Under the pieces are notes generated by a model. That model had not been told where the DNA came from, did not search any database, and was given only the letters and a program-made list of their open reading frames with translations. Shown here one piece after another: positions 1-64,000 of a stretch of DNA of 64,000 nt; positions within the stretch are counted from its first letter, which is position 1; each line of letters starts with the position of its first letter. This stretch comes from Xestospongia bergquistia. Lineage: Eukaryota > Porifera > Demospongiae > Haplosclerida > Petrosiidae. The position numbers and the translations under genes were made by a program. The stretch spans positions 9,140,101 to 9,204,100 of the forward strand of contig OZ014413.1 of NCBI GenBank assembly GCA_963965975.1, read 5' to 3'.

Positions 1-99
1 TTAACAAAAAGAGTGAAAATTTATCTATGCTGGTGTTTAATTCAAATGAGAAAATGGGAGTCAGTAAACTTTTATCTTCATTTACTAATATCACTATAG

Positions 100-1021
100 T
101 TTAAATCATCAGTTGATCAATTGACTATTTTTGTTCTTCAGTCTTTAAATCTCAAGACAAGCATTTCTCTATGCTTTTACAATGGGATGACAGAGTTATG
201 GAAAGTTGGCCTTAGTTTAATCTTTCCACTTTATCTTCTGACAATTGTAATTGTCCTCATCATGTTTTGTTGTTTTTCTCTAAGGTTTTCCAACTGAATA
301 ACTCACTCCTCAGTTCAAGTACTGGTTAATGTCATACCACTTTCTTATTTTAAAACCTACTTATTCAATTAATCAATGTTATGGCTTTTGCAATAATATT
401 TATCATGTTTAGTACTTTGATGGTACTATATAGAATATGGAAGACACTCCCATTGTATACTAATAATAGTAACTTTGTCTCCTGGTCTACTGTTACCATA
501 TGTACTCTTAATTCTTTTTGCTAAACCACTTAGACCACTGGCATGTACTAACAAGTACTTACAACCTTTTCTTGAAGCTATCCATGCTTCTTATAAGGAA
601 GGTAAACCATATTGGTTTTCATTGCGTCTTCTCTTACTAGGTGCTATGTATGGTATATGTGCCAAATATAGAGCTACCAATGTATATATAGTCTATATTA
701 CAATATAACAATCTAATCAATTGTTACTTCTTTTACAAACAAACCCACTGACAATGAAAAGTTTTAGTTTTAGTGGCATTAATAATTGTTAATTTAATAA
801 TTTAATAATTGTTATAACATATCATGTGCTCTGGGCTATGGGAAAAGTGTACAACATCAAACATTGGATTTAAAACAAATGGGAGAAAGTCTGTCATAAA
901 ACTTTTGTCTTTTTGTAGTTGTATAAGAATTCATAATCACTTCCCAATTACAGATATCAGTAGCTCATTTTATGGATCATGCTCAGAATTTAGAGAGCCT
1001 GTCTTAGATTACAATGACTGA
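100..1021 (+). pseudogene. Type I beta-helix/multi-TM receptor-like relic, C-terminal part, inverted orientation
   Basis: This plus-strand relic covers only the membrane half of a type I family member. Readable pieces include the segment around 160-290 (LCFYNGMTELWK, then FPLYLLTIVIVLIMF), 475-708 (LLLPYVLLILFAKPLRPLAC, then a conserved loop with LEAIHASYKEG) and 824-1021, which ends in the family tail FYGSCSEFREPVL. The pieces lie in different frames, and a stop codon follows the RFSN segment near 295, so no continuous product is possible. It is the only copy on the plus strand and lies tail to tail with the minus-strand pseudogene that ends at 1386. The first 100 bases show no clear homology. 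That this is a relic is seen directly. Its membership in the type I subfamily rests on the REPVL tail and the MYGICAKYRATN loop. Confidence 0.8.
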
Positions 1022-1385
1022 CAAAACAATTGTAGTGTCAAGTGTGCTTGTGTTAGAAAGGTACTTCATTGATTGAACATAGTCTTGATAGTTGTGCATA
1101 TTTTAATGGTGATGTGTGTATAGACAGGCATATTTATGTTTGGACAAACCCTCAGCATTGTGATTATTAAGCATATGTGTTTACATTGATATTTTAAGAA
1201 TGATGTCAGACTGGCATTACTAATGATATCCTTGATAGGCCATTAAGTTTCGTGATTGATCAATAACTGCAGCTTTGTAAATCAAATTTATTAAATGTCA
1301 TCATACAATCAAATTATATGCATAAAACATAGTGTGTATAGACAAATTATTAACTAAAGATATGCACTCAAAACTGTTTTTTTTG
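1022..1385. repeat. Duplicated 3' flank of type I loci
   Basis: There is no gene here. From about 1058 the sequence is a near copy of 5364-5711, the stretch just downstream of the 5712-9556 locus, so the 3' flank was duplicated together with the gene. On the minus strand an AATAAA-type polyadenylation signal (TTTATT on plus, 1287-1292) is conserved between the two copies. The boundary near 1058 is probably the breakpoint of the rearrangement that inverted the plus-strand relic. Confidence 0.7.
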
Positions 1386-3084
1386 TCAATCACTAGAGTG
1401 ACCTAGGACAGGCTCTCTAAACTCTGAGCATGAGCCATAAAATGAGCCACTGGCATCTGTAAATAGTGGTTGTCTGGTAGTTGTTTTATAAGTAAATGAT
1501 GATGATACTTTCATGTACCACAGCCAAAATTTCTCACATTTGTAATCAAACCGTCTTTTTACAATGTTCAATTTTCCTGTAACCCAGAGTACATGATAAG
1601 ATATGATAACAACTATTGTCATAAATGTCAGAAAAGAAGAGGTAAAGCAAATTATTTTCATCATTAATAGAGCCTTCTTGTGAATACCAAGAGAAGAGGT
1701 TAATAATTGTTAAGTTTATCACCAAACCACTATCAAGATAATTGACTAACTTATTTTTAAATGGTTTGATATATGTTTGAAAGACAAGGAATATTACCAA
1801 CATTAGACTTATTGCAACAAAAATAGCATAAATATCGGTAGCTCTATATTTGGCATAAATGCCATACATAGCTCATAGTAAGAGAAGACGCAAAGTAAAC
1901 CAGTATTGTTTACCTTATTTATAAGGAGCATGAATAGTTTCAAGGAGAGGTCGTAAGTACTTATTGGTACATGCTAATGGTCTAAGTGGTTTAGCAAATA
2001 TAAGTAGGAGTACATATGGTAGGAGTAGACCAATGACTACTATCAGAGTTACCATTATTAGTATACAATGGGAGTGTCTTCCATACTTGACATTACCATC
2101 AAAATACCAAACACGATGTGAACATTGGATGTGTAGATGTCAGAATATGCCATTGCATTGATCAATGGAAGGAGTAAACTTGACAAAGAGAGATGTACAA
2201 CAGTAACCAGTACTTGAACTGAGGAGTGAGCTATTATGTTGGAAAGCTTTAGAGAAAAATGGCAAAACATGATGAGGACAATAACTGTTGTCAGAAGATA
2301 AAGTGGAAAGACTAAACTAAGGCCATCTTTCCATAACTCTGTCATCCCATCGTAAAAACATAGAGAAATGCCTGTCTCGAGATTTAAAGATGGAAGAACA
2401 AAAATAGTCAACCCTGACAATCGATCAATTGAAGACTTAATGTAGTGATATCTTAACATGTCAACCAGACCACAGTTAGTACCCTGAGCATAGAATATAA
2501 TTCCATTGAGTGTACCAGTTGTTAATGTAAGTCTCAGAGCATATAGCAGGCAAATGAGGAGAGGACCAGCTACTAGATAAATACTTATTGATGCTACCCA
2601 AGCATTACTACAGTGATGACATTCTGTTGACCCAAATACCACACTTAATCCCTCACTACATCTACCGCATAATGTTCCTTCACATTGATATAAGCACAAT
2701 GGTGGATGATAGTCAGTGATACCATCTGACAGCTTAATATAAACAAGCTCCTGTACTTGCAACAAAATTTTCTTGAAACTTACATTCATTAAAACGAATA
2801 TCTAAATAAACAAATCCAGGATTAACAATACCAATATAGACAGCTCCATAGTCCAGACTGCTATTTAGCTACTGGGAAATACCTCGGTGTTTCAAAAATG
2901 ATGTGTTAAAAACATAAAGTGGTGCTAAGTGTTCTTGATTTGTAGATAAATGTAATGAATACCAATAAAACGAAATAGCTGCTCCATGACAATGTTCAAA
3001 GTTAATGTTATGATAGAATATTGTATTAGCAATTGTTGTGTTAGTGACAGCAAAGGTTTGATATTGCAAAACAAACATACCACC
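1386..3084 (-). pseudogene. Type I receptor-like pseudogene, 3' part of a recombinant locus
   Basis: Read on the minus strand from 3084, this block begins in the middle of the beta-helix (GGMFVLQYQTFAVTNTT), hits an in-frame stop after RGISQ, and near 2737 jumps from the beta-helix (KKILLQVQELVY, itself out of frame) straight into the Cys-rich juxtamembrane segment (KLSDGITDYHPP). Compared with 5712-8690, about 1.2 kb is deleted there. The transmembrane part follows in three shifted frames and ends with the tail FREPVLGHSSD and a TGA at 1386. Type I hallmarks are GTLCGRCSEG and FGSTECHHCSNAW. It is a clear pseudogene: several frameshifts, a stop and an internal deletion. Its closest relative in the window is the neighbouring 5712-9556 locus. 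Confidence 0.85.
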
Positions 3085-4747
3085 ATTTATCATGTCTCTC
3101 TGCTGCATTAGCATATATAGCTCCTCCAAATAAGTGAGCTGAATTATCAATGAACTTTGCTATAACACCTGACATAAAGTATAACTGACAGTTACCAACT
3201 AGTCTAATTGCTGGACCAGTCATAGCATGATTATTATCAAATGTTAAATTACCAGATAAATAGACATTTGAATCTTGAGAACTTATAACTGATCCATAAT
3301 TGTTACTGAAGGTGGATTTCCCAATAATGTCAACTCTGTTGATTCTGTGGAAATGAAAAATATTTGCTGAAGATACAAAGGGTTTTTTAGTATTTTGAGA
3401 GTTTTTCTCAGCAACAGTACTGTCCAATGTGATAGAGACATTCCCTAAAATATTGTCATATTGATAGACTGAGGCATATAAGCATGCTCCTGTATATGAT
3501 ACATAATTTTTATGAAATTTACAGCTTATAAAATCTATATGTATCTGAAGCATTACACGATTGACAATGCCAATGTAGACTGCTCCGTTGTCTTGTGTAC
3601 TGTACATGTGATCTGCTGACTGGATAAAGCCTTGATTATATATAAATGATGTGTTTGAAATATGAAGTGTTGATGAAGTTTTTTGAACTAAAGTTTTATA
3701 ATACAATGAAAACCAATAAAAGATAAGAGCAGCTCCATGACATTGATGAGTGTTGGAATTACCATAAAATACTGTATCAACAATTGATGTGTTAATATAG
3801 GCAAATGTATTGTACTGCAGAACAAGCATGCCACCAGCAAAACCACCAATATTTTCATGAAAATAAGATTTTGTGACATGAATTGTAACCTGATTTCTAT
3901 AATGAGTTTGTTGTGTGTAGAGTATTGTAAGTCCAGCTGCATTAACAATGGGATAATAATAATCAACGGATGATAAATATTTTTTATAGAAAACATCATT
4001 GATACAGGAATGAATATTGTAATCAATGTTATAAGAGAAGAAGGCATTTTTAATTTGTATGTCAAAGATATTATTTGTATTTGTGAAATGAAGAAGAAGG
4101 CCACATCCAAGACTATTTTTGAGATGTGAAAACAATTCAGCACTAAGTGATGAATTAGACATACTAACGTTATCAATAGTAGAGTTATATAGATTTACAC
4201 CAATCATAGCAAACCCATATGAGGAATAGATGTTAACTTGAGTTATATTGACCTGACAATGAACAAAGACTAAGACAGCAGAATGAGATGAAGTGTAATA
4301 CAGAGATGAACTATTGAGATAGTCAGTGATTGTAGCATTTTGTACTGTAGTAAGATATGTTCCACAGTTCTTGAAGACCAACCGTTCCAGCATCACTTTA
4401 GAAGTAAAGAAAAGGAAACCTCTTCTAGGTTTTGGAATAACCCCTACTTTATCATTATGAACACATGTTATTGTAACTGACTTTGTTGGAGAATCACTTT
4501 TTATTATGACTGTACTAATTTGGTGTCTGACTTGACAGAAGTTACCAGATGAAATGGTGAAGTTGATAGAACTGTTTAATAAGAGCACAAGATGTTGAGT
4601 GGACCATATTGTGTTACACAGGTACTGCTCTAAATCTGAAGAGGAGTTAACATGATATGTATTCTTACTGTCTCCACCATTACAATAACTACTAATGAGT
4701 AGGAGAGAGAGAAATGATTGCATTAATAAAGTCATCAGTGAAGCCAT
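3085..4747 (-). pseudogene. Receptor-like N-terminal half (signal peptide plus beta-helix), truncated by recombination
   Basis: The reading frame is open from an ATG at 4747 for more than 550 codons. It has a hydrophobic signal peptide (residues about 1-24), the family N-terminal motif YHVNSSSDLEQYLCNT, and a beta-helix with repeats such as GAALIFYWFSL, TGACLYASVYQ, FSNNYGSVISS and LFGGAIYANAAE. Many NxS/T sequons are visible. After HDK the sequence jumps at about 3085 back to an earlier beta-helix position (GGMFVL) of another copy, out of frame. The open frame then runs on only to a stop at 3041, with a short unrelated tail. It therefore lacks the linker, Cys-rich and transmembrane parts. 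It could in principle be translated as a secreted beta-helix fragment, but the simplest reading is the 5' half of a dead recombinant gene. Confidence 0.8.
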
Positions 4748-5711: not shown

Positions 5712-8700
5712 TCAATCACTGGAGTGACCTAGGACAGGCTCTCTAAACTCTGAGCATGAGCCATAAAATGAGCCACTGGCATCTGTAAATAGTGGTTGTG
5801 TGGTAGTTGTTTTATAAGTAAATGATGATGACACTTTCATGTACCACAGCCAAAATTTCTCACATTTGTAATCAAACCATCTTTTTACAATGTTCAATTT
5901 TCCTGTAACCCAGAGTACATGATAAGATATGATAACTACTATTGTCATAAATGTCAGAAAAGAAGAGGTAAAGCAAATTATTTTCATCATTAATAGAGCC
6001 TTCTTGTGAATAAAATACCAAGACATGAGGTAAATAAATGTTAAGTTCATCACCAAACCACTATCAAGAAGATTGACTAACTTATTTTTAAATGGTTTGA
6101 TATATGTTTGAAAGACAAGGAATATTACCAACATTAGACTTATTGCAACAAAAATAGCATAAATATCGGTAGCTCTATATTTGGCATAAATGCCATACAT
6201 AGCACATAGTAAGAGAAGACGCAATGTAAACCAGTATTGTTTACCTTCCTTATAAGGAGCATTGATAGCTTCTAGAAGAGGTCGCAAGTACATGTTGGTG
6301 CATGCTAATGGTCTAAGTGGTTTAGCAAAGAGGAGTAGGAGTACATATGGTAGCAGTAGACCAGGAACTACTATCAAAGTCACTATCATTAGTGTTCGAT
6401 GGGAGTGTCCTCCATACTTGACATTACCATCTAAATACCAAACATGATGTACCTCATTGGATGTGTAGACGTCAGAATATGTCATTGCATTGATCAATCG
6501 AAGGAGTAAGCTTGAGAAAGAGAGATGTACAACAGTAACCAGTACTTGAACTGAGGAGTGAGCTATTCTGTTGGAAAGCTTTAGAGAAAAACGGCAAAAT
6601 ATGATGAGGACAATGACTGTTGTCAGAAGATAAAGTGGAAAGACTAAACTAAGGCCATCTTTCCATAACTCTGTCATCCCATCGTAAAAACATAAAGAAA
6701 TGCCTGTCTCGAGATTTAAAGACTGAAGAACAAAAATAGTCAACCCTGACAATCGATCAATTGAAGACTTAATGTAGTGATATCTTAGCATGTCAAGCAG
6801 ACCACAATTAGCTGCCTGAGCATAAAATATAATTCCATTGAGTGTACCAGTTGTTAATGTAAGTCTGAGAGCATATAACAGATAAATAATGAGGGGACCA
6901 GCAACTAGATAAATAGCCATAGATGCTATCCAAGCATTACTACAGTGATGACATTCTGTAGATCCAAATACCACACTTAATCCCTCACTACATCTACCAC
7001 ATAATGTTCCTTCACGTTGATATAAGCACAATGGTGGATGATAGTTAGTGATACCATCTGACAGTTTCAAGCTTTCATTAGATGATAAATCACCACTGTA
7101 GAAGTAAGGTAGTGTGTGATTGCTATCACAGTATCCAATTGGACAAGTTAAAGATACACCAAATTGTGTCTTTGTTTTGTTCTCATATTCTATTGTTCCG
7201 GCCCAAGAGAAAAATACGAAAAGTCTTGTTATTGTCTGATTAGTCAAGTTACCGATAATGGGGACTATAAAGTGGTTTTTTCTCAAGTTACCAAATGAAG
7301 ATGAAAGTTCACAGACTCCTGTTATCTTATTCAATTCAAATCCCAAAGGACATGGATGTATTTTGACACTTTTTGTTAGAATTTTTGGTTGATGGTATAG
7401 AGAGAATACAATCATTCCATCTATGATATTGAATTGATCATTTGTATGAACAGTCACACTAATGGTGGTACAATTTGTGCCTTCTTGAATCAGTTGTTCT
7501 TGGTCATCATAAGACAACCAGAGTTTAGTTGTTTTAGGAATATTAGGCTGAGAATAATTTCGAACAATATTAATTGCTATGGTAGAATAAACATTTCTAT
7601 CAAGAGCATCAAGAGCTGAAATACAGTAATAAATTTCCTGTCCTGGAAATATTTGACGAAGTGGTGTTCTAATATATTCTTTAAGACATTGTGGTATTGT
7701 TGAAAACGTAAACAAGGTAGTGTTAGAAATATTGTTTATGAAAGTGAAGTGTTGATTATAATATGCCATTGATTCATTAAGAGTTTCAACATATTTTGAG
7801 TTGTTAATATAACATGAGAATATTGGCTGAGCATATATTGAACTGCCAGCTCTTTTTGCTTCGTTATCTGAGAACACGATTTGATTAATATAAGCATCAA
7901 TTTGTATGACACATTTATCATGAATCTTGGCTCCTTCAGCATGTATAGCTCCTCCAACTATTTGAGCCCAATTATTAGTAAACCTTGCTATAATTTCACT
8001 CATAAAGTGTAGTTGACAGTTACCTAATAGATGAATTGCAGAACCACTCATAGCATGATTATTATCAAATGTTAAATCACCAGATAGATAGATATTTGAG
8101 TCTTTAGAGCTTATAACTGATCCATAATTGTTACTGAAGTTAGAATTGCCAGTAATGTCAACTTTATCAATTCTATGGAAATAAAAAATCCCAGCTGATG
8201 ATACAAATGGAATTCCAGTATATTGAGAATTCTTCGTTGCAATAGTGCTCTCCAATGTAATGGAGATGTTGTTTATGTTGTCAATATATTTATAGACTGA
8301 GGCATATAAACAAGCTCCTGTATTTGCAACAAAATTTTCTTGAAATTTACATTCATTAAAACGAATATCTAGATGAACAAATCCAGGAGTGACAATACCA
8401 ATATAGACAGCTCCATAGTCCAGAGTGCTTTCTGGCCACTGGGAAATCCCTTGATGTTTTATAAATGATGTGTTAAAAAAATAAAGAGGTGTAAAATTTT
8501 CTTGATTTTTAGGCAGATGTAATGAATACCAATAAAATACAATAGCTGCTCCATGACAAGGTTCAAAGTTAATGTTATGATAGAATACTGTATTAATAAT
8601 TGTTGTGTTAGTGACAGCAAAGGTTTGATATTGCAAAACAAACATACCACCTGCAAAACTACCAACAGTTTGAAAAAAAATTTGACTCATTTATATGAAC

Positions 8701-9556
8701 TGACACCTGACCACTACTTTGTTGTGTGTATAGTATTGTTAATCCAGCTGCATTGACAATAGGATTAGAACCATCAGAAGATGATGAATGTTTGTTATAG
8801 TAGGTATCAGTAATGCAAGAATTAGTGTTATAATCATAGTTATAAGTGAAAAATGCATCAATAATATGTATCTTCTCTTCTTGAAAAGTATTGCTAGCAT
8901 CCATATAATGAAGAAGAAGGTCACTTCCAAGACTGTTTTGATTTTTGAGATGTGAAACCACTTTGGCACTAAGTGATGAATAAGACATACTAACACTATC
9001 AATAGTAGAATTATATAAATTTTCACCAATCATAGCAAATCCATATGATTAGTAGATGTTAACTTGACAATGAACAAAGGCTAAGGCGCATGAGATGATC
9101 TGTAATACAGAGATGAACTATTGAGATATTCAGTGATTGTATCATCTTGGATAGTAGTAAGATATGTACCACAATCCTTAAATATCAAATGTTCTAGAGT
9201 CAATGAAGTGTTAAAGAAAGCCAGACCTCTTCTAGACTGTAAAAAAACCTCTGATGTGTCATTATAAACACATGTTATAGTTGGCCATTCTGTGGGAGAA
9301 TCACTACATATGTAGAGCTGTCTTACACAGACATTACTATCTACTGGAAGTATTTTTCCATGCCAAGCCAGCAGTGTATAGATAGATGACCAACGATAAA
9401 CCATTGTAACATGGTCTTTATGATTACTACATTTAAACTAACTACTATATGTATGTTAGAGATGAACTGACATGTTGAACTACATATATGCAGTGCATTT
9501 AATTTGATAGTACAATAACCACTGAAGAGTACTAATGACAGTATTAATATAGTCAT
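5712..9556 (-). pseudogene. Type I receptor-like gene with a broken 5' end; 992-codon intact 3' frame
   Basis: The frame 8690-5712 is open for 992 codons. It contains most of the beta-helix, the linker (YYCISALDALDRNVYSTIAI), the Cys-rich segment (REGTLCGRCSEG, FGSTECHHCSNAW), all transmembrane segments and the tail FREPVLGHSSD. The 5' part is broken. An A8 run at 8673-8680 carries one extra base compared with the intact gene at 10235-14077 and shifts the frame. A Tyr codon has become TAA at 9049-9051. Deletions near 9060-9100 and a diverged start region (to an ATG at 9556) follow. An internal Met at 8690 would give a product without a signal peptide. The break pattern says pseudogene. The clean 3' part says the loss is recent or that the A8 difference is a base-calling error, but the separate nonsense codon argues against a full rescue. 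Confidence 0.8.
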
Positions 9557-10234: not shown

Positions 10235-13200
10235 TCAATCACTGTGACCTAGGAGAGGCTCTCTAAATTCTGAGCATGAGCCATAATATGAAGCATCTGA
10301 AAGACGTAATTGTCGATTATAAATATGTGAAGACAACACTTTCATTCGCCAGCGATGAACTTTCTCATATTTGTTTTCAATCCATTCTTTGAGGATGCTC
10401 ACTTTTCCTGTAACCAAGACAACATGATATACTATGATAATAATAAATGTGATGAATGTCAAGAAAATAGAAAAGATGCAAAATTGTATTCCCATTCCTG
10501 ATGTTTCTTCAAGAACAAAATACCAAGTGGTTAGATAGAGGAATGTTAAGTTCATCATTAACCAACAATCAAGAATGTTGACTAATGTATTCTTAAATGG
10601 TTTGATATAAGCTTGAAGGACAAGAAATATCACCAGCATAGGACTTGTTGTAATATAGATTATATATACGTTGGTAGCTCTATATTTGGCATATATGGCA
10701 TACATAGCACATAGTAAGAGAAGACGTAATGTAAACCAATATTGTTTTCCTTCCTTATAAGGAGCATGGATAGCTTCTAGAAGAGGTCGTAAGTACTTAT
10801 TGGTACATACCAGTGGTCTAAGTGGTTTAGCAAATAGGAGTAGGAATAAATAAGGTAACAGTAGACCAGGGACTACTACCAGAGTCACTATCATTAGTAT
10901 ACGATGGGAGTGTCCTCCATACTTAACATTACCATCTAAATACCAAACACGATGTACATCATTGGATGTGTAGACCTCAGCATAAGTCATTACATTGATT
11001 AATTGAGTAAGTAAGCTTGAAAAAGAAAGGTGTACAACAGTAACAAGTACTTGAACTGAGGAGTGAGCTATTCTGTTGGAAAGCCTTGGTGAAAAATGAC
11101 AAAAGATAATGAGGACAACAACAATTGTCAGGTAGTATAGTGGCAAAGCAAAATTAAAACCAGTTTTCCATAACTCTGTCATCCCATTGTAAAAGCATAG
11201 AGGAATACCTGGCTCAAGATTAAAAATACTAATTATAAATATTGTCAACCCAGACAAACCTTTACTCAAAGAGTTATTGTTATAGTAATGAAGTCTTAGT
11301 CCATCAATCAGACCACAATTAGCAGCCTGAGCATAGAATATAATTCCATTGAGTGTACCAGTTGTTAATGTAAGTCTCAGAGCATACAACAGGTAAATTA
11401 GAAGTGGACCAGCAACTAGATAAATACTTACTGATGCTATCCAAGTATTACTACAGTGATGACATTCTGTAGATCCAAATACCACACTTAATCCCTCACT
11501 ACATCTACCACATAATGTTCCTTCACGTTGATATAAGCACAATGGTGGATGATAGTCAGTGATACCATCTGACAGCTTAAAGCTTTGATTAGATAATAAT
11601 TCACCACTGTAGAAGTAAGGTAGTTTGTGATTTCTGTCACAATATCCAATTGGACAACTTATAGAAACATCAAATTGTGTCTTTGTTTTGTTCCCACATT
11701 CAAATGTTCCTGCCCAAGAGTTTAATGTGAAAATTCTTGTTATTGTCTGACTACTCACATTACCAACAATAGAGACTGTAAGTGATTGATGTTTTCTCAA
11801 GTTATAGAATGAAGATGAAAGTTCACAGACTCCTGTTGTTTTATTCAATTCAAATCCCAGTGGACATGGATATATGTTGACAATTTTTTTTAGACTAGGT
11901 GATTGTGTGCTTAGAGAGAATACAATCATTCCATCTATAATATTGAATTGATCATTTGTATGAACAGTCACACTAATGGTGGTACAATTTTTGCTTTCTT
12001 GAATCAATTGTTCTAGATCATCAAAAGACAACCAGACTTTTGTTGTTTTAGGAATATTAGGTTGGGAATAATTTCGAACAACATCAATTGCAATGGTAGA
12101 AAAAACATTTCTGCTAAGAGCATCAATAGCTGAAATGCAGTAATACGTTGTCTGTCCTGGAAACATTTGATGAGGTACTGTTTTTATATTTTCTCTGATT
12201 TTAGCTGGTATGGTTGAAAAATTATGCAAGGTATTGTTTGAAATGTTATTTATAAAAGTGAAGTGTTGATTATAATATGCCATTGATTCATTAAGAGTTT
12301 TAACATATTTTGAGTTGTTAATATAACATGAGAATATTGGCTGAGCATATATTGAACTACCAGCTCTTCTTGCTTCATTGTTTGTGAACATAATTTGTTT
12401 AATATCAGCATCAACTTGTATGACACATTTATCATGAGTCTTGGCTCCTTCAGCATGTATAGCTCCTCCTACTAACTGAGCCCAATTATTAGTAAACTTT
12501 GCTATAATTTCACTCATAAAATGTAGTTGACAGTTACCTAATAGATGAATTGCAGAACCACTCATAGCATGATTATTATCAAATGTTAAATCACCAGATA
12601 GATAGATATTTGAGTCTTTAGAGCTTATAACTGATCCATAATTGTTACTGAAGTTAGAATTGCCAGTAATGTCAACTTTATCGATTCTGTGGAAATAAAA
12701 AATCCCAGCTGATGATACAAATGGAATTCCAGTATATTGAGAATTCTTTGTTGCAATAGTGCTCTCCAATGTAATGGAGATGTTGTTTGTGTTGTCACCA
12801 AATTGATAGACTGAGGCATATAAACAAGCTCCTGTATTTGTAACAAAATTTTCTTGAAATATACATTCATTAAAACGAATATCTAGATGAACAAATCCAG
12901 GAGTGACAATACCAATATAGACAGCTCCATAGTCCAGACTGCTCTTTAGCCACTGGGAAATACCTTGGTGTTTTATAAATAATGTGTTAAAAACATAAAG
13001 TGGTGCTAAGGTTTCTTTATTTGTAGGTACATGTAATGAAATCCAATAAAACGCAATCGCTGCTCCATGACAAGGTTCAAAGTTAATGTTATGATTGAAT
13101 ACTGTATTAATAATTGTTGTGTTAGTGACAGCAAAGGTTTGATATTGCAAAACAAACATACCACTTGCAAAACTACCACCGTTTTGAATAAAATTTGACT

Positions 13201-14077
13201 CATTTATATGAACTGACACCTGACCACTACTTTGTTGTGTATAGAGTATTGTTAGTCCAGCTGCATTAACAATAGGATTAGAGCCATTAGAAGATGATAA
13301 ATGTTTGTTATAGTAGGTATCAGCAATGCAAGAATTAGTGTTATAATCATTGTTATAAGAGAAAGAGGCATTATTTATATGCATGTACGAGACTTGAAAA
13401 ACACTCTTCTCTTCTTGAAAAGTATTGTTAGCATCCATGTAATGAAGAAGAAGGCCACTTCCAAAACTATGTTGATTTTTGAGATGTGAAACCACATTGG
13501 CACTAATTGATGAATTAGACATGCTAACACTATCAATAGTAGAGTTATATAAATTTACACCAATCATAGCAAACCCATATGAGTAGTAGATGTTAACTTG
13601 AGTTATATTGACCTGACAATGAACAAAGATTAAGGCAGCAGCATGTGATGAAGTGTAATGTAGAGATGAACTATTGAGGTAGTCAGTGATAGTATCATCT
13701 TGTATGGTAGTAAGATATGTACCACAATCCTTAAATATCAATCTTTCTAGAGTCACTGTAGTGTTAAAGAAAGCCAGACCTCTTCTAGACTGTGGAGGAA
13801 ACTCTGATGTGTCATTATAAACACATGTTATAGTAGCCCATTCTGTGGAAGAATTACTGCGTATGTCAATCTTATTAGTCTGGTTACTTATCACTTGACA
13901 GAAAATACCATGTGAGAGGGTAAAATTGACAGAGCTGTTCAATAATAATACAAAGTATTGAGAGGACCATGTTGTGTTACACAGGCACTTCTCTAAATCT
14001 GATGATGAGTTAACATGATATGCTTTATACCAATTAACTAGATATAAAAGTCCCAGGATAGTTAACAGTAAGGACAT
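10235..14077 (-). CDS. Type I beta-helix, multi-transmembrane receptor-like protein (1,280 aa)
   Basis: This is an uninterrupted frame and the only intact type I gene here. Residues 1-18 form a signal peptide (LLLTILGLLYLVNW). Residues about 20-600 form an N-glycosylated parallel beta-helix with repeat turns such as GAAIAFYW, TGACLYASVYQ, NNYGSVISS and GGAIHAEGAK (near 540). Residues about 640-720 are a beta-sandwich-like linker (PGQTTYYCISAIDALSRNVF). Residues about 735-870 are Cys-rich (CPLGFELNKTTGVC, CPIGYCDRN, REGTLCGRCSEG, FGSTECHHCSNTW). About nine hydrophobic segments follow from residue 876, with the invariant stretch RLTLTTGTLNGIIFYAQ. The tail is YYGSCSEFREPLLGHSD. The first Met directly precedes the signal peptide. 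The family and its ligand are not known to me. A surface sensing or recognition role is inferred from architecture only. Confidence 0.88.
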   Translation of the reverse strand: MSLLLTILGLLYLVNWYKAYHVNSSSDLEKCLCNTTWSSQYFVLLLNSSVNFTLSHGIFCQVISNQTNKIDIRSNSSTEWATITCVYNDTSEFPPQSRRGLAFFNTTVTLERLIFKDCGTYLTTIQDDTITDYLNSSSLHYTSSHAAALIFVHCQVNITQVNIYYSYGFAMIGVNLYNSTIDSVSMSNSSISANVVSHLKNQHSFGSGLLLHYMDANNTFQEEKSVFQVSYMHINNASFSYNNDYNTNSCIADTYYNKHLSSSNGSNPIVNAAGLTILYTQQSSGQVSVHINESNFIQNGGSFASGMFVLQYQTFAVTNTTIINTVFNHNINFEPCHGAAIAFYWISLHVPTNKETLAPLYVFNTLFIKHQGISQWLKSSLDYGAVYIGIVTPGFVHLDIRFNECIFQENFVTNTGACLYASVYQFGDNTNNISITLESTIATKNSQYTGIPFVSSAGIFYFHRIDKVDITGNSNFSNNYGSVISSKDSNIYLSGDLTFDNNHAMSGSAIHLLGNCQLHFMSEIIAKFTNNWAQLVGGAIHAEGAKTHDKCVIQVDADIKQIMFTNNEARRAGSSIYAQPIFSCYINNSKYVKTLNESMAYYNQHFTFINNISNNTLHNFSTIPAKIRENIKTVPHQMFPGQTTYYCISAIDALSRNVFSTIAIDVVRNYSQPNIPKTTKVWLSFDDLEQLIQESKNCTTISVTVHTNDQFNIIDGMIVFSLSTQSPSLKKIVNIYPCPLGFELNKTTGVCELSSSFYNLRKHQSLTVSIVGNVSSQTITRIFTLNSWAGTFECGNKTKTQFDVSISCPIGYCDRNHKLPYFYSGELLSNQSFKLSDGITDYHPPLCLYQREGTLCGRCSEGLSVVFGSTECHHCSNTWIASVSIYLVAGPLLIYLLYALRLTLTTGTLNGIIFYAQAANCGLIDGLRLHYYNNNSLSKGLSGLTIFIISIFNLEPGIPLCFYNGMTELWKTGFNFALPLYYLTIVVVLIIFCHFSPRLSNRIAHSSVQVLVTVVHLSFSSLLTQLINVMTYAEVYTSNDVHRVWYLDGNVKYGGHSHRILMIVTLVVVPGLLLPYLFLLLFAKPLRPLVCTNKYLRPLLEAIHAPYKEGKQYWFTLRLLLLCAMYAIYAKYRATNVYIIYITTSPMLVIFLVLQAYIKPFKNTLVNILDCWLMMNLTFLYLTTWYFVLEETSGMGIQFCIFSIFLTFITFIIIIVYHVVLVTGKVSILKEWIENKYEKVHRWRMKVLSSHIYNRQLRLSDASYYGSCSEFREPLLGHSD

Positions 14078-14193: not shown

Positions 14194-14299
14194 AAAGGTA
14201 GATGTAATTTTACATAATTAAACAAATGCAAGGTGACCTTTCAGATTTTCCAAATTATTTATTGTTAGACTGTTGAGAATAACTTAAATGACATTTACC

Positions 14300-47408: not shown

Positions 47409-47764
47409 ATTATTGGTAAATTTGGGTAATATATTATAATGTTTTGTCACATTAACAATGTGAGTTTTGAAAATCAAAAGATTTTTTGCTCACCAATATG
47501 TAATTATTATGTTAAATGTCATTATGAAAACGAAACTTGTTACACTCAAAATATATAATATTGTCTAAAAAAACAAACAAAATATACTTTTAATGTAACT
47601 CCCTTGATATCAACAGAACTGTAAATAATGAAATAAATAGGTACATGATCTAACAGCTAATAATAGAATTCTAACATTTGTTAAAATCACTGCTTTGCAT
47701 CTTGTTGCCTTAAGAAAGAGAATTAAGTAATTTGACATGAACAATAGAAAGAATCACTGACATA

Positions 47765-50476: not shown

Positions 50477-53400
50477 TCAGTTACTAGGACTTAATAAAGG
50501 TTCCCTGTATTCACACGAATCATAATGTGAACCACTAGCTAACGGTAATGGTCTGCGTGAAAATAGTTTCTGCTTATACTTGCGCTGCATTAAATGAAAT
50601 ATTCCAGTAATTGAAGATATCTTGCCTGTTACTAGTAGAATATGATATACCAATACTGCCAAGAAGATCAAAAATACAAAGAGGACTGTGATCGATACAA
50701 ACATTATAGTAACCTTATACTTGAATTCTATGAACAAGAACCAAGTTGTTGTATACTGAAAAATAAGGTTGAGTAATGGCCAACAGTCAAGGAAGTATAT
50801 AACTTTGTTCTTAAATGGTTTAAAGTAAGTCTGTAAGAGCAATAGAAGAACCAAAATGGGAGTTGCTATAACATATATTTTAAGAACATTCCTAGCTCTT
50901 AGTGATACATATATAATATACATTACCACCACAAAAAGAAGTTGAGCTACAAACCAGTACTCCATTCCTTCCTTATATGGAGCATGGATAGCTTCAAGTA
51001 GAGGTCGAACATATTTGTTTACCCTTGTACGTCGTATTGGTCTAGCAAAGATGAGGAGAAGGACATAGGGTAATAAGAGAGGGATAACAACTAGTAATGT
51101 GATGATCATTAAAATGCGATGCGAACCAACACCATATTTTACAGACCCGTCCCAATACCAAACATTGTAACTGGTATTTAAATCATAATAAATTCTTGCT
51201 GAGGTAAACACATCAATAATAGCCAACAGAAGCTTAGAAAAGGAGAGGTGTATAACAGTAACTAAAACCTGAACTGATGAATGAGCTATTCTGTTAGAAA
51301 GCTTCAGAGAAAATTGACTGAGGATAATAAGGACAACAACTATTGTCAGTAAATAAAGTGGAAATAGTAAACAGAGACCAGATTTCCATAACTCTGTCAT
51401 TCCATTGTAAAAACAGAGAGGAAAGCCAAGATTCAGATTCACCATTGAAATAAAAACAAGGCAAAACATTGAATATGGAACTTCACTTACATTCAAAGCT
51501 AATAGATCTGTAATGCCACAATTAGCCATCTGAGCATAGAATATAATACCATTGAGTGTACCAGTTGTTAATGTAAGTCTAAGAGCATATAACAGGTAAA
51601 TGAGGAGGGGACCAGCTATTGCATAGAGGACTAATGTCCACAACCACCAATTATTACATTCTTTACATTCTGTAGAACCAAATACCACACTTAGTTTTTG
51701 GCCTTCTTTAAGCCTACTACAACTACCACACAATGGACCTTCACGATGATGTAAACACAGTGACTGGAGAGTTTCTTTGTTACAAGTCTTCTTTTTTGAA
51801 ATGTACATATTGCTAGTTGAAGAACTGCAAAAAAAGGACCCATCATAATTACAATAACCAAGTGGACATTGTAATGAGACACCAAAATGTGCAGATGTGT
51901 TTATATAACCAGCCCAGGAATTAGCAGATAAATGTGGTCTTACCATTGACAGATAATTAATGTCACAATCAGCCTTATAACCATAAACTGAGTAAAAATC
52001 TTTGTTATAAAAAGTTGATGAGCACCCACATTGTTGTGTTTCATTTTGCCAAACAAAACCTAAAGGACAATGTTGTACTGTAACATTGACAACTAGAGCA
52101 GCTGGAAAACTAGGTAGAGAAAATACAAATTTTCCCTCAGTTGTATTAGAGATTTCATTATATATTGTAAATGAAAATGGAGTGCATTTATCACCTTCAT
52201 ATGTTACTTGCTCTTTATAGTTATAATGTAGTATGTTTTTTGTAGCAATGTTAACTGCTATAGTTGAGTAGACCTTTCTGTTTACAGCATCAATAGATGC
52301 CATTACAATGTTGATCGTCTGACCTGGATAAGCGTTAAATTTGGTGGAATTTCTGAATACACTATTAGGATAACAAACAGTTAATTTTGAAGCTGAAGTT
52401 GATATATCATGTACTTTATATACTTCCTTGTTTTCAATGAAATTAAAGTGGTTTCTGTAAAAATCTAACAATGCCATATTATCAGAAACTTTTGAGTTGA
52501 CTCGACATGAAAAGAGTGGATAGGCATATATTGAACTACCAGCACGGATAGCTGTGTTTCCTACAAATGAAATACTCTTTTGTTTTGCAATATTTATTAA
52601 TTGTATGATACATTGTTCTTTTAGTAATAAGCTATTTTTAATACCAGAACTTGCATATATTGCTCCACCGAATTCCTGAGCTTGATTATTAGTAAAGTTA
52701 ACTACAGCTCCTCCAATAAAATAAAGATATCCATTACCTAGTAATCTAATAGCAGCACCTCTGGATCCAACATTGTTGTTAAAAGTCACATTGGCATATT
52801 TAGACAGATGAACATTGGAGTTGAGAGCATCAATCACAGATCCATAGTTATTAGTGAAGATTGACATTCCAGTAATAGACACATTTGCTATGTTACTAAA
52901 AGAGAAGATTCCTGCAGTTGAAACAGGTTGGAATGTTAATTTTTGAGAGTTGTTTCTTGCATGTATGTCTTCAAGAACAATGACAATGTTTGCAAACTTC
53001 TTAACATTATCATGGACAGAAACAAAAAGACAAGCTCCAGTCTTCTGAGCTAAGTTATTTTGAAAGCTACAGTTTTTAAAATGAATGTCTATATTAACAG
53101 TCTTGTCTACCTCAGCTACACCAACATATACAACACCAGTAGGTGAACAATTATGACCATGACCTGTGTGATTAAAAAACTTTGTATTTTGAATTAACAA
53201 TACTTGAGATTGAGTCATAGATACATCTGTTACTTTAATCCAATATAAAGCAAGACCTGCTCCATGTAAAAATGAATTAGGACCATTAGCATTATCAGAA
53301 AACAGACAGTTATTAACAATTGTGCTTGTATTAAGAGAATTCTTGTAATGAAGAACAAGCAGACCACCTGGTGAACTATAACTTCCCACGTTAGATGTAA

Positions 53401-54262
53401 TTTCTGTATTGTTAATAGTAACACTGGCAAAATATGCTTTTTGAGCATAAAGTACAGTCAGACCAGCAGCATTAACAATATTCAAGTATTTATTAGAGAA
53501 CTCAGTGATATATGAATATGCTTTGTGCAAATCAATGTTATTTTTAAAATGTGCATTAGTGACAGTAACATATGTAGGATACATTAGTTGATGATCAAAA
53601 AAATGTAGAAGAGCACCACAACCAATTGACCTCCTTTTGTCTTTGGTATAATGATATAGGTCAGTACTAAGAGTTGAATTAGACATATTAACTTTACTGA
53701 TACTAGAATCATGTAGATTTATACCAATCATAGCAAACCCATATGAGTAGTAAATGTTAACTTGAGTTATATTGACTTGACAATGAACAAAGACTAAGGC
53801 AGCAGCATGAGATGAAGTATAATGCAGAGATGAACTATTGAGGTACTCAGTGATTGTATCATTTTGAATAGTAGTAAGATATGTACCACAATTCTTGAAT
53901 ATCAATTGTTGTAGAATCACTGTAGTGTTGAAGAAAACTAGACCTCTTGTAGGTTGTTGAATGGCCTCTGGCAAATTATTACATCTTATAATAGCAGACT
54001 TTGTATAAGAATCACTGCATATTTCAATTCTACCAGTATCATAAGAAACTTGACAAAAGTTTCCAGATGAAATGGTGAAGATGACAGAACTGTTTAATAA
54101 GAACACAAGGTGTTGAGAGGACCATGTTGTATTACATAGGTACTGCTCTAAATCTGAAGATGAGTTAACATGATATGTATTATTACTGTCTCTACTGCAA
54201 AAGCAACTGAAGAGTAGTAGACAAAGAAATGACAACATCAAAGTAGTGGTCTGTAGAGTCAT
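50477..54262 (-). CDS. Type II beta-helix, multi-transmembrane receptor-like protein (1,261 aa)
   Basis: Intact gene with signal peptide (LMLSFLCLLLFSCFCSRD), complete beta-helix (CLFSDNANG retained, GAALVFVHC, LLGNGYLYFIGGAV, FGGAIYASSG), linker (PGQTINIVMASIDAVNRKVY), Cys-rich part (CPLGYCNYDG, NKETLQSLCLHHREGPLC, CSRLKEG, FGSTECKECNNWW), transmembrane region and tail HYDSCEYREPLLSPSN. Its Cys-rich stretch around CNYDGSFFCSSSTSN resembles the 18697 gene more than the 34616 gene, while its N-terminal and membrane parts resemble the 34616 group. This points to exchange between copies. The upstream promoter module is at the standard distance. Product function is unknown. It should sit at the cell surface with the beta-helix outside. 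Confidence 0.9.
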   Translation of the reverse strand: MTLQTTTLMLSFLCLLLFSCFCSRDSNNTYHVNSSSDLEQYLCNTTWSSQHLVFLLNSSVIFTISSGNFCQVSYDTGRIEICSDSYTKSAIIRCNNLPEAIQQPTRGLVFFNTTVILQQLIFKNCGTYLTTIQNDTITEYLNSSSLHYTSSHAAALVFVHCQVNITQVNIYYSYGFAMIGINLHDSSISKVNMSNSTLSTDLYHYTKDKRRSIGCGALLHFFDHQLMYPTYVTVTNAHFKNNIDLHKAYSYITEFSNKYLNIVNAAGLTVLYAQKAYFASVTINNTEITSNVGSYSSPGGLLVLHYKNSLNTSTIVNNCLFSDNANGPNSFLHGAGLALYWIKVTDVSMTQSQVLLIQNTKFFNHTGHGHNCSPTGVVYVGVAEVDKTVNIDIHFKNCSFQNNLAQKTGACLFVSVHDNVKKFANIVIVLEDIHARNNSQKLTFQPVSTAGIFSFSNIANVSITGMSIFTNNYGSVIDALNSNVHLSKYANVTFNNNVGSRGAAIRLLGNGYLYFIGGAVVNFTNNQAQEFGGAIYASSGIKNSLLLKEQCIIQLINIAKQKSISFVGNTAIRAGSSIYAYPLFSCRVNSKVSDNMALLDFYRNHFNFIENKEVYKVHDISTSASKLTVCYPNSVFRNSTKFNAYPGQTINIVMASIDAVNRKVYSTIAVNIATKNILHYNYKEQVTYEGDKCTPFSFTIYNEISNTTEGKFVFSLPSFPAALVVNVTVQHCPLGFVWQNETQQCGCSSTFYNKDFYSVYGYKADCDINYLSMVRPHLSANSWAGYINTSAHFGVSLQCPLGYCNYDGSFFCSSSTSNMYISKKKTCNKETLQSLCLHHREGPLCGSCSRLKEGQKLSVVFGSTECKECNNWWLWTLVLYAIAGPLLIYLLYALRLTLTTGTLNGIIFYAQMANCGITDLLALNVSEVPYSMFCLVFISMVNLNLGFPLCFYNGMTELWKSGLCLLFPLYLLTIVVVLIILSQFSLKLSNRIAHSSVQVLVTVIHLSFSKLLLAIIDVFTSARIYYDLNTSYNVWYWDGSVKYGVGSHRILMIITLLVVIPLLLPYVLLLIFARPIRRTRVNKYVRPLLEAIHAPYKEGMEYWFVAQLLFVVVMYIIYVSLRARNVLKIYVIATPILVLLLLLQTYFKPFKNKVIYFLDCWPLLNLIFQYTTTWFLFIEFKYKVTIMFVSITVLFVFLIFLAVLVYHILLVTGKISSITGIFHLMQRKYKQKLFSRRPLPLASGSHYDSCEYREPLLSPSN

Positions 54263-54307
54263 TATTTCAGAAAGGTCACAGGATAACTAGATTAACCAGA
54301 TAATTTT

Positions 54308-54376
54308 GCTTATATACCATCCAGTATCTATATTGATAATAGTAGGTTGCCTTGTCTTAAAAACAACATTGAAAGT
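54308..54376 (-). promoter_or_regulatory. Promoter module: TATA box and upstream element
   Basis: GTATATAAGC at 54308-54317 and ACTTTCAATGT at 54366-54376 lie 46 and 104 bp upstream of the ATG at 54262. Confidence 0.65.
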
Positions 54377-55214
54377 ATATATAAATTATGTCAACTACTT
54401 AGGATAATCATACTTTTAATTTTATTGGATTTCACTTTTCAACAACAACACAGGTGTGTGGTAGCACATTTTTGAAGTGTCTTGACAACTGATTGTTTGG
54501 GCTTAAGACCTACGCTCAAGTATGTCAGAGATGGTTATGTATTTATTCATTCCATCAATGAAAGTATACAACATTGCATTTACTTTGTGAAAGAATGTCT
54601 AATTTGAGTGTTATTCTATTAAAAAAATGCACTCATTATAAACAAATTGTGCTACATGTATTGTATGGTATGTCATTGAAGATACACATACTTAAATCAG
54701 TGGCTTCTGACAACATTTAACTTTCATTAAGTTAATCTTAAATGGTATAAAGTAGGTTTGTAAAGTAAGAATGATATTATGAGTGATGTTGATAACGTGT
54801 ATATCCTTTAAACTATTCTGTTATAAGTAAAAATGATGTACATATTTATTAACAACAACAATGTCACATGACTGGCATACAATAATCACATGACTGCAAT
54901 AAAAGTTAATAAAGGTTATTTAACCAAGAAAATAAAGGTCAACAGAAATTAAAGATATGAAAACATAATATTGTTACATGTATCATGATTTGTCATAGGT
55001 AAACATGTAAAATATCATTGAATAACTATAATATGGTTGGAAATGGAGAAATTTATCACTAGAATGGAGTCAACAAATTTAAACCATATTATTAAATATA
55101 CTCATACAACTTTATTCAGGTCACCAACAAATGCTGTATAAGTAATTTCTTAATCTATGCATTACCTCTATTATGTAGCAAGTGAATAAAGATCTATTTA
55201 TATCTTGCAGTGGT

Positions 55215-55625
55215 AGTCTGGCATTGTTACCCCTTTGCTTAGAGAGGAAGGGTGTGGGGTCAAGTGCCTATAGGACTCATACAGCAGGAATGTAAATGTG
55301 GATAGAACAAACTTAGACCTGAGCACATGTTATGAGAATGCCAAATGCAAAATGGCTGTTGCGATTGCACTGGTTGTGGTGACTATCTTTTGAATAGAAG
55401 CATAGACTGTCTTTCGAATTCACTAACTTAGGCACTGCCTTTTGTCACATCTGCTTCAAAGCGTTGCTAGCCATCATCAAGAATTGAAATAAAAAGTGAA
55501 AAGGAGGAGCTTGAAGTGCACAAGGCGTTTCTGTGGGCTGCAAGATTTTTGCTGGCTGTACAAGTCCTATATGCACATGTCTCCAGACCCTATCTCTCTT
55601 AATGAAGAGTCAGAAAAGCCAGACT
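55215..55625. mobile_element. MITE-like inverted-repeat element, copy 4
   Basis: Arms AGTCTGGC at 55215 and GCCAGACT ending at 55625, with the same interior as the other copies. Confidence 0.55.
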
Positions 55626-61816: not shown

Positions 61817-62224
61817 AGTCTGGCATTGTCACCCCTTTGCTTAGAGAGGAAGGGTGTGGGGTCAAGTGCCTATAGGACTCGTACAGCAGGAATGCAAATG
61901 TGGATAGAACAAACTTAGACCTGAGCACATGTTATGAGAATGCCAAATGCAAAATGGCTGTTGCAATTGCACTGGTTGTGGTGACAATCTTTTGAATAGA
62001 GCATAGACTATCTTTCAAATTCACTAACTAGCACTGCCTTGTGTCACATCTGCTTCAAGGTGTTGCTAGCCATCATCAAGAATTGAAATAAAAAGTGAAA
62101 AGGAGGAGCTTAAAGTGCACAAGGCGTTTCTGTGGGCTGCAAGATTTTTGCTGGCTGTACAAGTCCTATATGCACATGTCTCCAGACCCTATCTCTCTTA
62201 ATGAAGAGTCAGAAAAGCCAGACT
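61817..62224. mobile_element. MITE-like inverted-repeat element, copy 5
   Basis: Equivalent of 39351-39758. Arms begin AGTCTGGC and end GCCAGACT. Confidence 0.55.
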
Positions 62225-62580
62225 ATTATTGGTAAATTTGGGAAATATATTAAAATGTTTTGTCACACTAACAATGAGAGTTTTGAAAATCAAAAGATTT
62301 TTTGCTCACCAATATGTAATTAGTATGTTAAATGTCATTATGAAAACGAAACTTGTTACACTCAAAATATATAATATTATCTAAAAAAACAAACAAAATA
62401 TACTTTTAATGTAACTCCCTTGATATCAACAGAACTGTAAATAATGAAATAAATAGGTACATGATCTAACAGCTAATAACAGAATTCTAACATTTGTGAA
62501 AATCACTGCTTTGCATCTTGTTGCCTTAAGAAAGCGAATTAAGTAATTTGACATGAACAATAGAAAGAATCACTGACATA

Positions 62581-64000
62581 TCACAATAAAGCACAACTTT
62601 GAGAACATTGCTGCCCAACAACAACTGGCCTTTCCATTTTACAGTATATAGCATTGAAGAATGCTTGTATTAAAAGAACTTTACCTTTAACCAAGAGAAC
62701 GTAGTAGAAGAGAACCAACAAAAAAAACAAAAAGGTAATACTGATTAAGACAGTGGTTATTATTTCAACTGTTGCATCTTGACGAATTAATAAGAAAAAA
62801 ACACTGCTACAGTTGAGTAGACATTTCTATTTACAAAATCAACAGATGCCGTGTAGATCTTGATCTTCTGACCTGAATAGGTGTTAAATGAATTGATGGA
62901 ATTTCTGTGTGTACCAATAGGATAACAAAAAGTTAAATTTGAAAATGAAGCTGATAGATATTTTGTGCAATTTATTCACTACTCTGTTTCCAATGAAATT
63001 AAAGTGATTATTGTAAAAATTAAGCAATGTTTTATTTATAGACTTGCTTGATCTGGTATAAAAAAGCAGATAAGCAAGATATTGAATTACCAGCAGCTAC
63101 CTGCAGCAAATAGCTACATTTTCTCTAAAAGATTACTCTTTTGCTTTGTAATATTAATTAATTGTATGATACATTGTTCTTTTAGTAATAAGCTATTTTT
63201 AAGATAAGAACTTGCATATATTGCTTGACCAAATTCCTGAGCTTGGTTATTAGTAAAGTTAACTACAGCTTCTCCAATAAAATAAAGATATCCATTACCT
63301 AGTAGTCTAATAGCAGCACCTCTGGATCCAACATTGTTGTTAAAAGTCACATTGGCATATTTAGAGAAATGAACATTGGAGTTGAGAGCATCTATCACAG
63401 ATACATAGCTATTAGTGAAGATTGACATTCCAGTAATAGACATGTTTAATACATTACTAAAATAGAAGATTCCTGCTGTTGAGTCCTGCTGGAATGTTAA
63501 ATTTTGAGACCTGTATTTGTTCTTTGAGTATAAAGCACTGTCAATCAAGCAGTGTTGACAATAGCATTATAAGTACTATATGATGAATTCTGTTGATGAT
63601 AATACAGACCAATTATACAAGAATAACCAGTCCTAACAAAATCAATATTATACTTCAAACAAATCAAGAAAATGATTCCACTACCAATAATTTTGCTGAT
63701 TTTTGAAAACACTTCATAGCCCAGGGAGGAATTAGATGCATTAGCTCTGCTAATACTTGAGTCATATAGATTTATACCAATCACAGCAAACTCATATGAG
63801 TAGATGTTAACTTTCACCTATATTGACCTGACAATAAACAAAGACTAAGCAGCAGAATGAGATGAAGTGTAATATAGAGATGACCTATTGAGGTAATCAG
63901 TGATTGTAGTATCTAGGATGGTAGTAAAAAGTGTTCCACAATTATAAAACACCAATCAATCAAGAGTTACTGAAGTGTTGAAGAGGACCAGACCTCTTCT
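62581..64000 (-). pseudogene. Degenerate receptor relic: beta-helix fused to last TM segment, copy 4 (cut by window edge)
   Basis: A near copy of 40115-41534, with the same deletions, frameshifts and last-transmembrane fusion and a TGA at 62581-62583. Coding scraps lie at 63114-63548 and 63545-63817. The 5' part lies beyond the window. Only scattered base differences separate it from copy 2 (for example FTNSYVS against FTNNYVS), so the duplication is recent. Confidence 0.75.

Follow-up and report, generated by a model that had tools for sequence, protein, structure and literature searches.

A lineage-expanded family of candidate beta-helix surface receptors with mosaic genes in the sponge Xestospongia bergquistia

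A 64,000-nucleotide stretch of the sponge Xestospongia bergquistia genome (contig OZ014413.1, here C3, positions 9140101-9204100; hereafter the window) is occupied by a single family of single-exon genes whose predicted proteins combine a beta-helix-like ectodomain with a cysteine-rich stalk, a multi-pass membrane domain and a short tail. We put the chance at about one in two that these genes encode lineage-expanded surface recognition or adhesion receptors, reshaped by gene conversion, which would most likely be directed at microbial or food-particle glycans and might be endocytosed. The evidence comes from the window itself, from alignments of family members and from searches of the whole 146-Mb genome in 21 contigs.

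All 11 open reading frames (ORFs) of at least 300 amino acids (aa) in the window lie on the minus strand, and they all come from one single-exon family, as an earlier note on this DNA had proposed for the whole stretch. Six are full length (1259-1280 aa; P0001 to P0006), agreeing with its count of six intact or nearly intact frames of 1,259-1,280 codons; the qualifier is apt because the conserved end of the tail is missing from P0004 (23606-27385). In this gene another short tail without the conserved REPLL end stands at 23606-23650, and the remaining frame is open. The five other full-length proteins are 48-100% identical to P0001, and P0006, about 46-48% identical to the other full-length window proteins, represents a second clade. 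When the six proteins were compared with the window by tblastn, about 12 damaged copies were found besides the full-length genes, 11 on the minus strand and one, the fragment at 121-1018, on the plus strand. This figure, close to the eleven or so given earlier, comes from stretches grouped by eye, two neighbours possibly being one copy. Stop-free stretches of at least 100 codons cover 40,144 bases of the minus strand versus 624 of the plus strand; such open frames are not due to chance, since five base shuffles of the window gave at most 1,152 stop-free bases and a longest stretch of 153 codons. Searches of the window for tRNAs and Rfam families returned no matches.

The array is young in part. 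Positions 33126-41534 match 55574-64000 at 99.5% identity, and 41535-48513 and 48664-51627 match DNA just beyond the window at 99.5% and 98.0%, respectively, which marks a tandem segmental duplication whose repeating unit spans about 22.5 kb. At 42259-46055 lies a damaged copy (L029) with a twin outside the window (L028), and its damage is probably older than the duplication, because the search table gives the twins internal stops alike in kind and number. Fresh 99.5%-identical duplications thus stand beside pseudogenes, bearing out the birth-and-death evolution suggested earlier.

Alignment of 23 members gave one order throughout: leader, sequon-rich ectodomain, linker, stalk with invariant cysteines, membrane domain and tail. 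The linker, cysteine-rich stalk, multiple transmembrane (TM) segments and tail of the architecture described in the earlier note were all recovered, and its signal peptide and Pmp-like beta-helix held in part. Hydropathy analysis placed an N-terminal hydrophobic peak in two of three proteins profiled (P0001 and P0005), the leader of P0006 falling below threshold. The NCBIfam polymorphic outer membrane repeat TIGR01376 scored above its cut-off in three of four members scanned, with no match in P0006; Pfam Chlam_PMP (PF02415) matched 21 of the 23 members at E≤0.5 (best E 7e-4) and stayed below the Pfam cut-off in all seven window proteins scanned. Each of three proteins counted carries 24-34 sequons over its whole length. 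These are concentrated in the ectodomain; past aa 860 only one recurs often (10 of 23 members), and it falls in a loop predicted to lie outside. The structure model of the ectodomain has a beta-rich core, with 205 of 712 residues at a predicted local distance difference test score (pLDDT) of at least 70 and core blocks reaching 90. Foldseek comparison of this model with the PDB returned 197 matches, none reaching E 0.001 (best 2.8e-3); those listed are largely right-handed beta-helix proteins, among them many glycan-active enzymes and phage tailspikes and also a bacterial adhesin. As these scores are weak, the model only suggests a fold class, the right-handed beta-helix, and no closer identity.

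The membrane domain has ten hydrophobic peaks. Charges and the common sequon point to an N-out/C-in topology, with nine crossings if one weak peak is re-entrant. Its first helices show the highest conservation of any large part of the protein (73% mean pairwise identity), and a loop of the domain and the tail are basic and conserved. No Pfam, NCBIfam or PDB-sequence match to the membrane domain was found in the proteins scanned; in particular, these searches did not assign the proteins to a known transporter, an outcome that the earlier note had named as one that would refute its proposal. The tail ends in REP[LMVI][LIV] in 29 of 31 tails, the exceptions being P0004 (L013) and L020. Other matches were set aside: PDB hits of FYVE-like type on the stalk (E 0.5-0.9) and one to Kv2.1 (E 0.8) were attributed to cysteine pattern or chance, and KH_9, Ig_VWDE, OBP47 and similar Pfam families to chance (E≥0.05 in one to three members). 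DUF7027 matched one of the 23 members at E 0.0023, and PADLOC, run on three proteins, gave no matches.

These features bear directly on the leading alternative, that the proteins are chemosensory or mechanosensory channels in which a TRP-like or Flc-like membrane domain is gated through the beta-helix and stalk. The nine or ten hydrophobic peaks, the basic conserved loop and tail and the strong conservation of the first helices would all suit a channel, and the proteins may resemble protist TRP-like proteins with cysteine-rich stalks. However, no Pfam channel family was matched at E≤0.5 in the 23 members, profile searches found no relative among PDB sequences, and no TRP family match appeared in Pfam or the PDB. 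We regard a channel as unlikely.

Comparisons among paralogs indicate that many of the genes are mosaics that arose by exchange between them: the ectodomain and the membrane domain differ in history from each other and from the promoter with its leader. In profiles of divergence at fourfold-degenerate sites, displayed for 25 pairs, the loci L045-4600 and L034 differ by 6% in codons 1-100 and by 25-75% past codon 200, and L030 and L031 by about 10% towards either end and by as much as 62% in the middle. Maximum chi-square tests gave p<0.01 in 102 of 284 pairs, uncorrected for multiple tests or shared ancestry, with breakpoints mostly in codons 100-299 and 800-1199 and none in 400-700; a further 122 of the 406 pairs were excluded for few sites or differences or for excess divergence. 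Trees of codons 25-160, 200-700 and 740-1222 reject each other (approximately unbiased test p<1e-4, Kishino-Hasegawa p=0, Shimodaira-Hasegawa p=0 except one value of 0.042; IQ-TREE, 2,000 replicates, a number flagged by the program as few).

The 300 bases upstream of the start codon move as one unit with the first 90 codons in the ten pairs compared, which were picked after the fourfold-site profiles and so illustrate exchange without counting it. P0006 (10235) and L016 share 81% of upstream bases and 85% over the first 90 codons, and only 57% over codons 200-700. The body relative of P0006, L045-4600, is 75-84% identical to it in the body and has an upstream identity of 46%, equal to the shuffled baseline (mean 46.4%, at most 52.9%). 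L045-4600 in turn matches L034 at 85% upstream, 91% over the first 90 codons and 56% in the body, and L033 and L035 are 92% identical over codons 200-700 and 46% upstream. An element, TATATAAG, is conserved about 50 bases before the ATG at window positions 54263-54322 and at the equivalent places upstream of the genes at 23606, 34616 and 57082, leaving little room for an upstream intron there; it is absent in other clades. A TATA box was rejected as a family feature, being present at -80 to -35 in nine of 29 genes (14% in shuffled sequence) and in certain clades only.

The earlier note had seen the family within the window; its loci reach far beyond. A full-length query gave 37 genome matches and a 171-aa piece of the membrane domain at least 150. 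Among the matches listed for this piece, 141 lie on C3, seven on C1 and one each on C2 and C4, and 105 sit in frames of at least 1240 aa. A second piece, from a distant member, found near-identical places plus three new ones (judged by eye), bringing the window family to at least 153 loci, 144 of them on C3. The four largest C3 arrays (Table 1) are each one-stranded or flip once, with a median spacing of 5.9-6.6 kb. At C3:8.50-8.95, 9.07-9.27 and 9.53-9.71 Mb the array halves are opposed, with one strand switch each, as if growing outward from inversion points. Four loci at C11:133976-153746 and three at C3:9691072-9703561 have identical search scores and a spacing of about 6-7 kb, which suggests very recent tandem amplification.

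The family also has distant relatives. P0007 matches the Pfam family DUF7630 (PF24633) weakly, at 11.3 bits against a cut-off of 27, and a six-frame DNA search of the genome with this family reached three loci, all above the cut-off; as proteins, two of these loci (L053 and L054) score 21.9 and 24.6 bits, under it, and so does L055, a locus from a later search, at 14.4 bits. L053, read in part, has a beta-helix-like stretch with GGAV, a linker containing PGQ, a cysteine stalk, a membrane domain and an SFQEREPLI tail; the piece read of L054 spans stalk and membrane domain and includes a QPLL segment. Pairwise hhalign comparison with the 23-member profile gave E 6e-27 for L053 and 6e-16 for L054, and L055, a marginal search match at first (E 5e-6, 24% identity), proved a clear member at E 9e-59. 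On these alignments, the distant clades and the window family evidently share a common ancestry. Used as queries, pieces of L053, L054 and L055 gave at least 148, 149 and 150 matches at E≤1e-3. The superfamily thus comprises at least 456 loci on 15 of the 21 contigs, with intact and broken ones counted alike and with 153 in the window family and 303 outside it; 296 hold frames of at least 1150 aa and 338 have another locus within 15 kb. The total merges all searches within 1 kb and is a floor, as three of the five short-piece searches reached 150 matches and the remaining two drew on 150 scored candidates; it also includes fragments, counts twice any gene with pieces more than 1 kb apart, and contains unchecked weakest matches (E 1e-4 to 1e-3), L053, L054 and L055 being the only three of the 303 other loci read as sequence. 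Lineage expansion and surface-receptor anatomy, both proposed earlier, are supported.

The full-length copies compared are constrained proteins under purifying selection, as the low ratios of nonsynonymous to synonymous change (dN/dS, and pN/pS when pooled) make clear. Among 29 full-length members, whole-gene dN/dS by the Nei-Gojobori method was 0.35-0.57 in all 93 pairs (dS 0.02-0.45), and the ectodomain exceeded the membrane domain in 87 of them (for example L012-L015, 0.64 versus 0.20). Pooled over four close clades, pN/pS was 0.39 in the N-terminal cap, 0.55-0.57 in the ectodomain, 0.66 in the linker, 0.31 in TM1-3 and 0.42 in later helices, and 0.35 in the tail motif versus 0.90 in the remaining, variable tail. 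A search for averaged positive selection found pN/pS below 1 in all 25-codon windows except one in the tail, at 1.00.

Allorecognition, in which the proteins would be individual-specific surface tags or receptors for self and non-self during sponge tissue fusion, has in its favour the tandem birth and death, recent duplication, module exchange and large sequon-rich ectodomain. At least 456 loci on 15 contigs are, however, not one linked polymorphic locus, which makes a single histocompatibility locus unlikely; averaged dN/dS is below 1; and the main text of a graft transcriptome study of the demosponge Amphimedon queenslandica, as far as its accessible part goes, contains neither beta-helix nor 'membrane protein' nor 'receptor' (PMC5450542). 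We consider allorecognition rather improbable. Slightly less probable still is that cell adhesion, matrix or housekeeping proteins have expanded neutrally in tandem arrays. Damage to about 12 of the 18 window copies and the scatter of loci over many contigs would fit such an expansion, yet nearly two thirds of the loci (296) keep long frames, dN/dS is well below 1, the tail motif persists in 29 of 31 tails, and no known adhesion domain appeared in the scans. A mobile element or viral gene, to which high copy number and single open frames might point, is very improbable and was rejected: Pfam scans of the proteins (intergenic DNA lying outside them) found no transposase, reverse transcriptase or viral family, no relative was confirmed in viral contigs or a phage collection searched with one 403-aa query, and the tandem layout with shared intergenic DNA fits segmental duplication.

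Among known systems, DUF7630 is the nearest Pfam handle on the window family, although it covers 45 stalk residues only and has no assigned function. L053 and L054 share the stalk and membrane domain with the window family, and L053 also the beta-helix and SFQEREPLI tail; the window family misses the Pfam cut-off, as L053 and L054 also do when scanned as proteins, and DUF7630 is not listed among the matches of the 23 members. The hallmark of sponge aggregation factors is the Calx-beta and Wreath domains; no Calx-beta match was found in Pfam scans of the window proteins and the 23 members. Chlamydial Pmp autotransporters (PF02415/TIGR01376 repeats) are a further comparison (PMC10715098, PMC11166332). 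Their repeats are of the FxxN and GGA(I,L,V) type, and the window family has a Pmp-type stretch, FTNN..A...GGAI, in its putative beta-helix, above the NCBIfam cut-off in three of four members and below the Pfam cut-off in the seven window proteins. The window proteins differ in having a single matched repeat stretch each where the autotransporters have many, and an alpha-helical multi-TM domain with a tail in place of the beta-barrel, and in lying in animal chromosomal arrays; no autotransporter beta-barrel family was found in the Pfam scans of window proteins and the 23 members.

The best functional parallel is the trichomonad Pmp family. In the portion of the study available to us, trichomonad Pmp and BspA proteins have C-terminal endocytic motifs and raise adhesion, and the Pmps comprise at least two dozen genes, about 90% of the expressed ones with a transmembrane domain (PMC6701047). 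These are likewise eukaryotic, expanded Pmp-type membrane proteins, many with sorting motifs in their tails (PMC6701047). The window family, likened to them by description only, differs in its nine or ten helices, cysteine stalk and hundreds of loci. Sponge NLR and SRCR repertoires are also large, lineage-expanded and devoted to recognition in the accessible text (PMC12909245, PMC10855680), but they consist of other domains and, in Dysidea avara, number 126 bona fide NLRs (PMC12909245), as against at least 456 loci, intact and broken, here. G-protein-coupled receptors (GPCRs) of sponges and choanoflagellates are multi-pass receptors too, and in the sponge form clusters of similar neighbouring paralogs, as far as these sources were seen (PMC4302439, PMC12716839). 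Unlike GPCRs, the window family has more than seven hydrophobic peaks; no 7tm family was matched at E≤0.5 in the Pfam scan of 23 members, and the term beta-helix was not found in the main text of the two GPCR papers. Nor was it found in the main text on prokaryote-derived genes of A. queenslandica (PMC4784904) or on grafting (PMC5450542). No paper on this family and none on DUF7630 was among the open-access matches listed, in a search to which subscription journals, preprints and genome annotations were external; within that literature the description 'possibly undescribed' stands. Surface repertoires that have expanded within a lineage under gene conversion are a known kind of system; the protein family, its size and its module exchange appear to be new.

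We thus return to plasma-membrane recognition or adhesion receptors as the preferred reading. The glycosylated beta-helix would bind a surface, most likely glycans of microbes or food particles; the membrane domain would transmit the binding event or pass ions; and adaptors for sorting or signalling would dock on the tail, possibly leading to endocytosis. As genes duplicate in tandem, decay into pseudogenes and exchange their modules (promoter-leader, ectodomain and membrane domain), the repertoire would be steadily renewed, and perhaps its patterns of expression with it. Three general points favour glycan binding: polymers are frequent ligands of comparable beta-helices, such as those of phage tailspikes, adhesins and polysaccharide lyases; a filter feeder encounters many of them; and repertoires of such size and turnover elsewhere serve recognition.

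Several results weigh against this reading. The ectodomain model is confident for only those 205 of 712 residues, its Foldseek matches have TM-scores of at most 0.33 (best 50 of 197 matches) with a best E of only 2.8e-3, and the membrane-domain model has a pLDDT of 36. No 25-codon window has an averaged pN/pS clearly above 1, so these averages do not demonstrate diversifying selection on a binding face, and in six of the 93 pairs, including L020-L021 and L047-L048, the ectodomain evolves no faster than the membrane domain. Similarly, 182 of the 284 pairs have no single breakpoint at p<0.01. The canonical dileucine signal for endocytosis, [DE]xxxL[LI], occurs in one of 31 window-family tails, away from the conserved end, and was read by eye in three of three distant members, so endocytosis is a guess.

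Table 1. Features of the window (window coordinates) and large arrays on contig C3 (contig coordinates, in Mb)
Feature	Position	Strand	Basis or remark
Full-length copy P0001, 1260 aa	57082..60864	-	ORF list, alignment
Full-length copy P0002, 1261 aa	50477..54262	-	ORF list, alignment
Full-length copy P0003, 1260 aa, near-identical to P0001	34616..38398	-	ORF list, alignment
Full-length copy P0004, 1259 aa, conserved tail end lost	23606..27385	-	ORF list, tail scan
Full-length copy P0005, 1267 aa	18697..22500	-	ORF list, genome search
Full-length copy P0006, 1280 aa, second clade	10235..14077	-	ORF list, alignment, tblastn
Signal-peptide-like leader, P0005 aa 1-24	22429..22500	-	Hydropathy, alignment; no predictor behind label
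Putative beta-helix ectodomain, P0005 aa 25-600; POMP repeat aa 522-542	20701..22428	-	Boundaries approximate
Linker, P0005 aa 601-735	20296..20700	-	Alignment; boundaries approximate
Cys-rich stalk, P0005 aa 736-877, homologous to DUF7630-like stalks elsewhere in genome	19870..20295	-	
Multi-TM domain, P0005 aa 878-1222, ten hydrophobic peaks	18835..19869	-	
Tail, P0005 aa 1223-1267, YREPLL motif at end	18700..18834	-	Alignment, tail scan
Damaged fragment, C-terminal part	121..1018	+	tblastn
Damaged copy, C-terminal part, frameshifts; may join 2728..4747	1392..2735	-	tblastn
Damaged copy, N-terminal part, 568-aa frame P0008	2728..4747	-	tblastn
Damaged copy, 992-aa C-terminal frame P0007 and shifted N-terminal pieces	5712..9392	-	tblastn
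Damaged fragment, stalk/TM	14287..14904	-	tblastn
Damaged fragment, frameshifts	15696..17396	-	tblastn
Damaged fragment, ectodomain	29332..30578	-	tblastn
Damaged copy, C-terminal half	30887..33126	-	ORF list, tblastn
Damaged fragment, ectodomain	40336..41855	-	tblastn
Damaged copy, full length across two frames	42259..46055	-	ORF list, tblastn, genome search
Damaged fragment, ectodomain, frameshifts	47984..49775	-	tblastn
Damaged fragment extending past window edge	62802..64000	-	tblastn
Tandem segmental duplication unit, about 22.5 kb	33126..55573	.	Second copy from 55574, continues outside window
C3 array, 30 loci	8.50-8.71 Mb	minus	
C3 array, 27 loci	8.77-8.95 Mb	plus	
C3 array holding the window	9.07-9.27 Mb	11 plus then 22 minus	
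C3 array	9.53-9.71 Mb	10 minus, 11 plus	

Elsewhere in the genome, nine Wnt matches fall at three places and represent three Wnt genes, which mark the genome as an animal's. Bacterial contamination or recent whole-gene transfer was rejected as a source of the family, which lies on an 11.5-Mb contig in an animal genome and has no relative confirmed in a collection of genome contigs, by a scan that used membrane-domain peptides and to which the origin of the beta-helix is out of reach. An 18,997-base contig carries cox1, whose 447 matched codons are free of stops when TGA is translated as Trp, and broken cox1 copies on a nuclear contig (C6:3154917-3155898 and C6:3199148-3200446) most likely stem from mitochondrial DNA that entered the nuclear genome. 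Runs of adjacent protein-kinase-domain genes with open frames were seen at C5:1.16-1.48 Mb, C14:0.20-0.29 Mb and C6:1.62-1.70 Mb.

To conclude, we present a family of candidate surface receptors that is possibly among the largest surface repertoires of this animal. A bolder and more doubtful proposal, drawn from the same sequence comparisons, is that this undescribed superfamily, one of the largest with receptor-like proteins in an early-branching animal, forms the sponge's main surface-recognition repertoire. Gene conversion would reassort three modules (promoter plus leader, beta-helix ectodomain, and membrane domain plus tail) across hundreds of loci and so shuffle binding specificity as well as the time and place of a receptor's expression. 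Promoter-leader exchange leads to a prediction on expression, and single-frame genes ease cloning and binding assays. As Pfam scarcely detects these loci, 456 at the least, domain-based surveys of immune and sensory genes would miss the superfamily. Sponges have neither adaptive immunity nor neurons, and how they distinguish microbes, food and self is the broader question to which such a repertoire would speak.

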